Source: an uncultured Gammaproteobacteria bacterium (GTDB taxonomy: Bacteria > Pseudomonadota > Gammaproteobacteria > Ga0077536). Taken from it: 56,230 nucleotides of DNA. The translations under genes and the position numbers were made by a program. Positions 36,769 through 39,920 of this stretch are shown piece by piece (positions within the stretch are counted from its first letter, which is position 1; the number at the start of each line of letters is the position of its first letter). The notes beneath the pieces are model-generated. The model was not told where the DNA came from, did no database searches, and worked only from the letters and a program-made list of their open reading frames with translations. The stretch covers positions 1-56,230 of the forward strand of contig CALJHG010000003.1 of NCBI GenBank assembly GCA_938075585.1, read 5' to 3'.

Positions 36769-37998
36769 ATGCGTTGTGAAGTTGTCGCCATAGGAACAGA
36801 ACTCCTTCTAGGTCAAATTATAGATACAAACTCATCCTGGATAGGGGACCACCTAGCTCAAATTGGAATCGACTCCCTCCACCAAACTAAAGTAGGGGAC
36901 AATCACGAGCGTATAGTAGATGCTCTGAAAACCGCACTGAAAAGAAGTGACGCTGTAATATGCTGCGGTGGTCTTGGCCCGACACAAGACGATATCACTC
37001 GAGAAGCCATTGCTGAAGTAATGGGTGTGGAACTCGAATTAGATCCCAATATTGTTGAAATAATCAAAAGGATGTTCGAATCTCGCGGGAGAACGATGCC
37101 TGATAATAACTTAAATCAAGCAAGGATCCCAAAGGGGGCTGCCGCAATTGCAAAACAACCTGGGACCGCTCCTGGCCTCATATGCCCTATTGGTAATCAA
37201 GTGATATACGCCGTGCCTGGCGTGCCTTATGAAATGCATCAAATGATGGAGTCAGCAATTCTACCTGACCTACTCAAGCGTTCAGGAACAAAAGCGGTCA
37301 TTAAAAGTAGAGTTTTGAAGACGTGGGGACACAGCGAAAGCCGTCTAGCAGAGCTCCTGTCTAAAAGGATCGAACAGCTGGATGAAAAAGGGAATCCTAC
37401 GCTGGCGTTTCTCGCTAGCGGCATAGAAGGACTGAAGGTAAGGATCACGGCTAAAGGGGAAACTGAAGCCTCGGTGTTGCGTACTATCGAAAAAGAAGAA
37501 GCTATTGTTAGAGACTTGCTGGGAGATAGTATATTTGGGAGTGATGAGGAAACTATGGAATCGACCGTTATCAAGTTGCTTAAACAGCACAGCCTCACAA
37601 TGTCTGTTTCGGAAGTTACCAGTGGAGGGATCGCAAGTGCTCGGTTATCAAGTAAAGATCCTTTCGGAGAAGTATTTGTTGGGGGCCTAGTGCCCAGGTC
37701 CTCTATAGTGCGAAAACATATCCTTGGCCTAAAAGACGATCTCATCGGGACCAAAGAAGGCGCGAAAAATCTCGCGAAAGCGACGCGAGAATTTTTTGGA
37801 AGCGATATTGGCCTCGCTACTACAGGAGAACATGATTTACCAAGGAAGAGTGCGGCTGGGCAAACATTTTTAGGTATCGCGGATTCAAAGGGTGAGCGAG
37901 TGGAACTAGTGAAATTACCCGGCGATTACGAGAGAGTCCGACAATTTAGTGTTATCAGTCTCTTAAATGCTCTACGACTCGAGATAATTAAAAAATGA
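36769..37998 (+). CDS. cinA: CinA-family protein with altered C-terminal motif
   Basis: A 409-residue two-domain CinA. The N-terminal MoCF/COG1058 domain (1-170) is canonical: IGTELLLGQIIDTNSSWI, CGGLGPTQDDITREA, YAVPGVPYEMHQMM. It is associated with ADP-ribose pyrophosphatase activity. The C-terminal domain is usually an NMN deamidase marked by ESCTGG; here residues 282-287 read EVTSGG, and the following GGLVPRSSIVRK lacks the usual YSN. The amidase activity is therefore doubtful. Its stop overlaps the start of the SelW-like gene by 4 bp (ATGA), so they are translationally coupled. Confidence 0.85.
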   Translation: MRCEVVAIGTELLLGQIIDTNSSWIGDHLAQIGIDSLHQTKVGDNHERIVDALKTALKRSDAVICCGGLGPTQDDITREAIAEVMGVELELDPNIVEIIKRMFESRGRTMPDNNLNQARIPKGAAAIAKQPGTAPGLICPIGNQVIYAVPGVPYEMHQMMESAILPDLLKRSGTKAVIKSRVLKTWGHSESRLAELLSKRIEQLDEKGNPTLAFLASGIEGLKVRITAKGETEASVLRTIEKEEAIVRDLLGDSIFGSDEETMESTVIKLLKQHSLTMSVSEVTSGGIASARLSSKDPFGEVFVGGLVPRSSIVRKHILGLKDDLIGTKEGAKNLAKATREFFGSDIGLATTGEHDLPRKSAAGQTFLGIADSKGERVELVKLPGDYERVRQFSVISLLNALRLEIIKK

Positions 37999-38216
37999 AC
38001 ATTAGTATCAAATACTGTGTGCAGTGAAACTATAAGCCCGAAGCACTCCGTGTGAGATCGCTGCTGCTGGAATACCAAAAAATTGAAGTTATCCTGATAG
38101 AAGGCGACGGTGGTGTTTTTGAGATAAGTAAATCAGATAAAACGGTCTTTTCTAAAAAGCTAAGCGGAAGGTTTCCGACAGAGACTGAGGTGCGAGCTAT
38201 GGGCAAAGAAGTCTAG
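37995..38216 (+). CDS. SelW/Rdx-family selenoprotein, Sec encoded by in-frame TGA
   Basis: Starting at ATG 37995, which overlaps the cinA stop, the frame reads MNISIKYCVQ, then TGA (38025-38027), then NYKPEALRV and on to TAG at 38214. With TGA read as selenocysteine this is a 73-residue Rdx protein. Cys8-V-Q-Sec11 is the family redox motif CxxU, NYKPEA is the segment that follows it in bacterial SelW-like proteins, and GDGGVFEI and VFSKKLSGRFP are the two other signature blocks. SelW-type proteins have a thioredoxin-like fold and act as small thiol redox proteins. The candidate SECIS hairpin behind the TGA is listed separately. Ordinary gene calling stops at codon 10 and misses it. A degraded Cys homologue is the alternative, but every other position is intact. 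Confidence 0.82.
38042..38062 (+). promoter_or_regulatory. candidate bacterial SECIS element
   Basis: Downstream of the TGA the mRNA can form AGC/GCU, an internal loop A versus AUC, then CUC/GAG with apical loop CGUGU (38049-38053). The loop begins 22 nt after the TGA and has G as its second base. Both fit the published bacterial SECIS rules (16-37 nt, G among the first two loop bases). The stem is short, so this is only a candidate. Confidence 0.45.
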
Positions 38217-38220
38217 TACG

Positions 38221-38484
38221 ATGCTGGTCACACTGTGGGTAAAAGACGCTCTGCAAAAACCCTATAGTACTTTTGATCACATAAATACTTATGCGGTACA
38301 ACAATCTATAGCAATGGGGATCGAAACTTCTCCCGCTGAAGTTAAAGCGGCGCTGGATAAACTTATTGAAAAAAATATTGTCGAAACGCACCAATACCTG
38401 GCTGAAGAAAAATATTATGCTGAGACTATTTATGACAAAAGTAATATTTACTGGTATTTTTTTAAACTTAAAGGACCCGATTAA
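38221..38484 (+). CDS. small protein of unknown function next to the SelW-like gene
   Basis: An 87-residue protein, start 5 bp after the SelW-like stop. I do not recognise it. It looks helical with mixed charge, including SPAEVKAALDKLIEKNIV, which resembles the second and third helices of winged-helix domains, followed by a hydrophobic strand-like IYWYFFKLKG. There is no signal peptide or cysteine motif. It sits in a same-strand row with cinA, the SelW-like gene and an amidase gene (29 bp downstream). A DNA-binding role is only a guess. Confidence 0.6.
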   Translation: MLVTLWVKDALQKPYSTFDHINTYAVQQSIAMGIETSPAEVKAALDKLIEKNIVETHQYLAEEKYYAETIYDKSNIYWYFFKLKGPD

Positions 38485-38513
38485 GCAGTCATCAAGAATC
38501 TAAGGAGAGCGAA

Positions 38514-39920
38514 ATGGCTATCGAATCCGACTTACTAACTCAAACTATCGAAACTGTAGCTCCGCTCATCAAAAGCAAAGAAATATCACCCGTTGCATTA
38601 ACAGAGGCAATGCTGGATAGAATACGTAAAATAGATAAAAAACTTAATAGTTACATCTCAATATCAGACGAACTCGCCCTTAAAGGGGCAGCTCAGGCCG
38701 AATCAGAAATCAAAAAAGGATTGTATCGAGGGCCACTTCATGGAGTTCCTATCGCCCTCAAAGACCTTGTCAATGTTACTGGAATAGAAACAACTTGCGC
38801 TTCGACAATACGAAAAAAGTTCAAAGCAGAACACGACGCCACGGTAGTCGAAAAACTTAAAAGCGCGGGCGCAGTGATATTAGGGAAACTCAATCTAACC
38901 GAATTTGCTCTCTATGGTTACCATCCTGACTATAGGCCTCCGAATAATCCCTGGAACATTGAACATTGGTCAGGAGTGTCTTCCAGTGGTTCAGGAAGCG
39001 CGACTGGAGCCTCCCTTTGCTTTGCTAGCCTCGGAACTGATACCGGTGGATCAATTCGGTTCCCTTCAGCAGCCTGCGGGGTCGTAGGTATCAAACCTAC
39101 TTTTGGAAAAATAAGCAGGTATGGCGTTTTCCCATTATCTGACACACTCGATCATATTGGCCCTATGGCTCGCAGTGTGCGTGACGCGGCGATGGTCCTA
39201 GAGATACTTGAGGGGCGTGACTCACGCGATGGATCTACCCGTTCCGATAAAAGTAGCGACTATTTATCCGCTGCTAATCAAGGCTTAAGGGGCATCACCG
39301 TAGGGTTTGATCAGCAATATTCATCTACCGACTGCGACCCTCAAATGTTTCAAGCTACAGCCACTGCAGTTGAGCTAATGAGACATGAAGGCTCTCAAAT
39401 TATAGAAATTAATCGGCCAGAAATCGTCGAAGCCGCCGATCATTGGATGACAATATGCTCAGTTGATGCTTTGTGTGGGCATGAAGGTTTGTTCCCAGAA
39501 AAAGCCGATGATTACGGTCCAGTTTTCCGCTCACTTCTAGAACATGGCCTACAAGTAAGTGCGAAAGAGTATGCGAAAGCATGCAAACAAAGACAAGCTA
39601 CACGAGCGTTAATCAATGAACTCTTAGAGACAGTAGACGTACTTGTTTGTCCTGCCATGCCTGGATTAGCAGGGCCCCAATCGGATTATCCGCCGCAGCA
39701 AGTAGCTGCGATAGACGATATAGCACCCTTGGTACGATTTGCCGCACCCACAAACTTTTCAGGTCATCCCAGCATTACCGTACCAAATGGCTTTGACGCT
39801 TCTGGAATGCCTACTGCTATGCAATTTATTGGGAAATTAGGTGATGAATCGTCCATCATAAGGGCGGCCGCGGGATATGAAGATCTGACCGAATGGCACA
39901 CAATGCGACCAGACTTATAA
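38514..39920 (+). CDS. amidase-signature family amidohydrolase
   Basis: A 468-residue amidase-signature enzyme with the complete Ser-cisSer-Lys triad: Lys83 in PIALKDLVN, the cis-Ser in GVSSSGSGSATGAS (about 157-158) and nucleophile Ser180 in TDTGGSIRFPSA. The C-terminal block YPPQQVAAIDDIAPLVRFAA and APTNFSGHPSITVPNGF is normal. It is not GatA: the neighbours gatB and gatC are absent and the C-terminus is shorter. Likely substrates are small amides, biuret or allophanate-type compounds; this cannot be decided. A ribosome site AAGGAG precedes ATG. Confidence 0.9.
   Translation: MAIESDLLTQTIETVAPLIKSKEISPVALTEAMLDRIRKIDKKLNSYISISDELALKGAAQAESEIKKGLYRGPLHGVPIALKDLVNVTGIETTCASTIRKKFKAEHDATVVEKLKSAGAVILGKLNLTEFALYGYHPDYRPPNNPWNIEHWSGVSSSGSGSATGASLCFASLGTDTGGSIRFPSAACGVVGIKPTFGKISRYGVFPLSDTLDHIGPMARSVRDAAMVLEILEGRDSRDGSTRSDKSSDYLSAANQGLRGITVGFDQQYSSTDCDPQMFQATATAVELMRHEGSQIIEINRPEIVEAADHWMTICSVDALCGHEGLFPEKADDYGPVFRSLLEHGLQVSAKEYAKACKQRQATRALINELLETVDVLVCPAMPGLAGPQSDYPPQQVAAIDDIAPLVRFAAPTNFSGHPSITVPNGFDASGMPTAMQFIGKLGDESSIIRAAAGYEDLTEWHTMRPDL

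Follow-up and report, generated by a model that had tools for sequence, protein, structure and literature searches.

A putative SelW-type selenoprotein gene adjoining cinA in a gammaproteobacterial genome

The 56,230-nucleotide stretch of DNA analysed here (the window) very likely harbors a functional bacterial gene, selW, in which selenocysteine (Sec) is inserted at UGA 38025 and whose product would be a CxxU oxidoreductase translated after cinA. Identical TGA codons in homologous loci of related genomes, an almost frozen hairpin core immediately downstream of them, and genes for the Sec machinery in the same genome (G000) support this assignment.

Results

Gene organization and predicted product

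The features of the window discussed here are as follows.
36769..37998, + strand: cinA, with COG1058 pyrophosphatase, KH and degenerate PncC deamidase domains; first gene of the presumed operon.
37995..38216, + strand: selW, Rdx/SelW-type selenoprotein gene of 73 aa with Sec as residue 11, assigned from the TGA=U translation, Pfam and homologues.
38025..38027, + strand: in-frame TGA read as Sec, at the second position of the CxxU motif, assigned by family and class comparison.
38042..38062, + strand: candidate SECIS element with outer pairs AGC/GCU, inner pairs CUC/GAG and pentaloop CGUGU at 38049-38053.
38221..38484, + strand: small conserved gene of 87 aa after selW, with homologues in the same place.
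38514..39920, + strand: amidase of the amidase signature family (Pfam Amidase, E-value of 9.5e-111), last gene of the conserved cluster.

The selW frame starts with ATG 37995 and continues past the TGA to the next in-frame stop, TAG 38214-38216. With TGA decoded as Sec (U), the product is MNISIKYCVQUNYKPEALRVRSLLLEYQKIEVILIEGDGGVFEISKSDKTVFSKKLSGRFPTETEVRAMGKEV, with the CVQU redox motif at residues 8-11. The initial annotation described a complete 73-residue Rdx/SelW protein obtained by read-through, with its sole in-frame stop at the redox-active position and a gene that standard callers miss. All of these points hold: the frame and the Pfam and NCBIfam scores agree, TGA 38025-38027 is the only stop before the TAG, and the standard translation ends after 10 residues. 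The read-through product matches Pfam PF10262 (Rdx) with an E-value of 7.3e-16 and 58.6 bits (cut-off, 22.6) and TIGR02174 (CXXU_selWTH) with 51.5 bits (cut-off, 34.2). Its AlphaFold model (pLDDT 92.6) has the thioredoxin-like SelW fold, and Foldseek comparisons gave TMq values of 0.83-0.92 with bacterial Rdx structures, including 2fa8, 2ojl and 2obk, and 0.68 with mouse SelW (2npb). The protein also retains every residue that is invariant, or nearly so, in the family alignment. An Rdx search of the whole genome hit one site only, the selW locus, with a single TGA inside it. A script scan for other TGA read-through genes in the window gave no further convincing selenoprotein.

Conservation of the TGA codon

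Within the family of the studied genome, 26 of 36 genomes contain SelW loci (27 in total), and TGA occupies the Sec position in 27 of 27. No Cys form of SelW was found in these 36 genomes. The observation is far beyond chance because the 27 homologous loci keep the TGA. In a class sample of 369 genomes, TGA-form Rdx genes were found only twice, both in members of the same family, while the other 48 Rdx loci are uninterrupted by stops, and the ones inspected carry CxxC aligning with U11. A genome-contig search with the SelW alignment, which uses Cys codons at the Sec position and is blind to TGA forms, returned two distant Cys forms. The anticipated Cys at residue 11 thus occurs in distant relatives, whereas close relatives keep the TGA and the SECIS core instead.

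SECIS element

The candidate SECIS element contains an inner hairpin, CUC(CGUGU)GAG, at 38046-38056, whose loop lies 21 nt past the UGA. Three inner pairs, a bulge and three outer pairs form a helix of about -3.4 kcal/mol; a competing CAC/GUG pairing has similar energy, and the minimum free energy (MFE) of the 54-nt segment is -7.5. The published bSECIS model places a G within the first two loop positions and the loop 16-37 nt from the UGA, and further sets an upper stem of 4-16 bp and an MFE of at most -7.5 (PMC13188914). The CG[U/G]G loop and its distance from the UGA (CGUGU, 21 nt) fit this model, but the selW sequence taken alone does not pass the strict test, with an upper stem of 3 bp against the 4-bp rule; most relatives have 5 bp. 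An Rfam search gave no SECIS match. Therefore, the proposal of a hairpin within known bacterial SECIS limits stands for its position, its CGUGU loop and its spacing from the UGA, but not for its stem, which is weaker than had been implied: three consecutive pairs with a small outer helix.

The hairpin is backed by comparison across genomes more than by its own energy, as the lone fold is weak in the window. The 27 loci align without gaps from the TGA and have a common CTCCG[T/G]G core with a five-base loop. The stem pairs are CUC/GAG across these loci, with CUC/GGG in two. Codons +7 to +10 past the TGA read CTC CGT GYG AGR and are nearly frozen synonymously (CTC, 27/27; CGT, 25/27, with CGG in two; GTG or GCG, 27/27; AGA or AGG, 25/27), while nearby Pro, Ala and Leu codons vary freely among four or more forms each. 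Computed from local codon frequencies with each genus represented by one locus, and uncorrected for shared ancestry, the joint chance of this codon pattern is ~10^-24. One stem pair shows compensatory changes from C-G to U-A, which is modest evidence on its own. The CG[U/G]G loop core is common to the selW genes and to a second group of selenoprotein genes described below. The frozen codons together with this common loop are, at the sequence level, a SECIS signature.

Sec machinery and a second selenoprotein gene

Contig C30 of the studied genome encodes selA (566 bits), selB (418 bits) and tRNA-Sec with anticodon TCA (70 bits). The fourth component sought, selD, could not be located in the assembly, which is 92% complete in 76 contigs; of the Sec machinery on which the initial annotation made its proposal depend, selA, selB and tRNA-Sec are thus present, but selD is not among the genes found. 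The only selD match in the assembly, on contig C40, was rejected as ThiL by its sequence. Above-cut-off selD genes occur in 29 of the 36 family genomes, three of them congeneric with the studied one; most lie in open frames of ~740-800 aa, compatible with the published Ndh-SelD fusion (PMC2398784). Given the incompleteness and fragmentation of the assembly, we read the missing selD as an assembly gap and infer that the gene lies in the unassembled part of the genome.

A further selenoprotein gene was located just upstream of selA.
L049:5291-6388 (contig C30): AhpD-like selenoprotein gene with a single TGA in a CFYU motif.
It encodes an AhpD/carboxymuconolactone decarboxylase-like protein of 365 aa, and TGA is present in 19 of the 19 loci found across the family. 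In the studied genome, its SECIS element has a 7-bp stem and a CGUGC loop located 24 nt past the TGA. This gene, too, would be truncated by standard calling.

Taken together, Sec is very probably inserted at UGA 38025. In the proposed mechanism, SelB and Sec-tRNA(UCA) would recognise the CGUGU-loop hairpin just 3' of this codon, selenocysteine would be inserted there, and the product would be a SelW/Rdx-family thiol/selenol oxidoreductase with a thioredoxin fold and a Cys-x-x-Sec motif.

The cinA neighborhood

The genes cinA, selW, the 87-aa gene and the amidase gene follow each other on the + strand. As first reported, the selW start overlaps the cinA stop: the ATG shares bases with the TGA of cinA in an ATGA sequence at 37995-37998 (4-nt overlap). 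The two genes are probably co-transcribed, and selW would be translated after cinA from their common mRNA. The ATGA overlap occurs only in the studied genome, its closest relative (G002) and a decayed copy in a sister genome (G005). More widely, selW immediately follows a co-oriented cinA in 12 genomes belonging to five genera, and the two genes are divergent neighbors in three genomes from two further genera; in the remaining selW-bearing genomes, cinA is located elsewhere or was not found. The amidase gene adjoins selW in 10 of the loci examined. Homologues of the 87-aa gene occupy the same place with 38-45% identity in four genomes and 95% in a fifth. The 87-aa protein has no Pfam family above the cut-off. 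Its C-terminal SNIYWY segment is invariant, and the gene directly follows selW in six genomes.

CinA proteins active as NMN deamidases carry AESCTGG and YxNxxK at the PncC site (PMC3855486, PMC4246079). The CinA in the window has SEVTSGG and RSSIVR at these positions and so lacks the residues of an active deamidase. The site is degenerate family-wide, with or without an adjacent selW, and the degeneracy is therefore not tied to selW. The coupling of SelW to a degenerate CinA, proposed in the initial annotation, is accordingly correct with respect to the altered site and to the adjacency in much of the family, but the former is also seen without the latter.

Decay and selection of the cinA-linked copy

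One cinA-linked copy of selW has degenerated.
L071:2727-2890 (G005): decayed selW in which the TGA is kept, Cys-8 is lost and the 3' part is deleted.
The CinA of this sister genome is 92% identical to that in the window. G005 and G002 each have another, intact Sec-SelW elsewhere. Degradation of the downstream part, which had been named as an observation that would count against the gene, is thus seen in one sister genome, but since that genome retains another Sec-SelW, we read the decayed copy as the loss of a duplicate and as no argument against Sec here. An Rdx search of the whole assembly found no second SelW in the studied genome, and the copy in the window is therefore not evidently redundant. 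The second locus of the G005 and G002 type was likewise not found in it; its flanking regions are split between two contigs, and as one of these stops near the break, the locus may still be present.

Between the closest genomes, G000 and G002, selW shows 2.5 synonymous and 7.5 nonsynonymous changes, near the neutral expectation, as against 106.5 and 43.5 for cinA (Fisher p 0.002-0.01); the amidase gene also differs from selW in this respect. The dN/dS analysis of these genomes gave no sign of constraint on selW and hints at relaxation, and constraint on this copy may have been relaxed. Over 36769-39500, synonymous divergence between the two genomes was 0.50 for cinA but 0 for the 87-aa gene and 0.13 for the amidase gene. 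The sharp drop from cinA to the 87-aa gene suggests a recombination mosaic.

Discussion

If UGA 38025 were a normal stop codon or the result of a sequencing error, the remainder of the frame would be a pseudogene or a Cys gene. The termination of standard translation after 10 residues and the fragmented draft state of the assembly would suit such a reading, but the same TGA recurs in 27 loci of 26 assemblies, the synonymous sites just past it are frozen, and the genome encodes Sec machinery. We give this reading practically no credence, and at the level of sequence it can be regarded as refuted. There is a small chance that constraint on this selenoprotein gene has recently been relaxed and that selW, although it looks intact, is dispensable and dying, as in G005. 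The decayed copy at the same place in G005, the presence in G002 of a second Sec-SelW beside this copy, and the neutral-looking substitutions, unlike those in cinA, point in this direction. However, only ~10 changes were counted, both G000 and G002 retain an intact frame with Cys-8, the TGA, the SECIS core and all (nearly) invariant positions, and no second SelW was found in G000. A functional Sec-containing SelW is the reading we prefer.

A separate question is the role of the neighboring genes. SelW and CinA might cooperate, for example if SelW kept a thiol of CinA or of its substrate pathway reduced and thereby coupled the turnover of NAD or ADP-ribose to redox state. The recurrent adjacency of the two genes and the identification of COG1058 as an ADP-ribose pyrophosphatase (PMC4246079, PMC3680494) are in line with such a partnership. 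Nevertheless, we regard it as improbable: in other genomes of the family, the two genes are separated or only one of them was found, the deamidase site is degenerate also without an adjacent selW, and the amidase and 87-aa genes are linked as well, so that common descent of the operon accounts for the linkage. The initial annotation's speculation about redox control of NAD metabolism finds no support in these data. It is similarly doubtful that Sec-SelW serves as a dedicated redox partner to a CinA lacking deamidase activity, the 87-aa protein and the amidase in an undescribed selenium-dependent nucleotide or thiol repair module.

A gene that standard callers truncate after 10 residues is thus very likely a real selenoprotein gene. 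The 27 putative SECIS elements of the family, together with a second selenoprotein family having the same loop, should help to delimit what SelB recognises in this lineage, and the conserved cinA neighborhood suggests where to look experimentally for the physiological partner of bacterial SelW. No description of a SelW-cinA linkage, or of a SECIS loop common to two unrelated selenoproteins of this lineage, was found in the literature searched.

SelW-like proteins are among the most abundant marine bacterial selenoproteins, with 427 sequences from Global Ocean Sampling (GOS) (PMC1088965, PMC2398784). The protein in the window resembles those of the Sargasso Sea and GOS data in being a short Rdx protein with a CxxU motif and, putatively, in its SECIS element right past the UGA. 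With the Rdx family PF10262, represented by the Cys form Atu0228 (2fa8) and mouse SelW (2npb), it has in common the fold, the position of the CxxC/CxxU motif, and the GGVFEI and xGRFP segments. It differs from the bacterial Rdx proteins of solved structure, which are ~30 residues longer, and, in contrast to PF10262 at large, every SelW found among the 36 family genomes is a Sec form. The best-scoring NCBIfam model is NF041051, SelTWH_Campy (SelT/SelW/SelH family (seleno)protein), but the score of 81 bits is below the cut-off of 88, and the protein is therefore not an equivalog of that model. SelW here is an additional member of the already known CxxU SelW-like selenoproteins, and its less usual feature is the location of selW beside cinA in most relatives.
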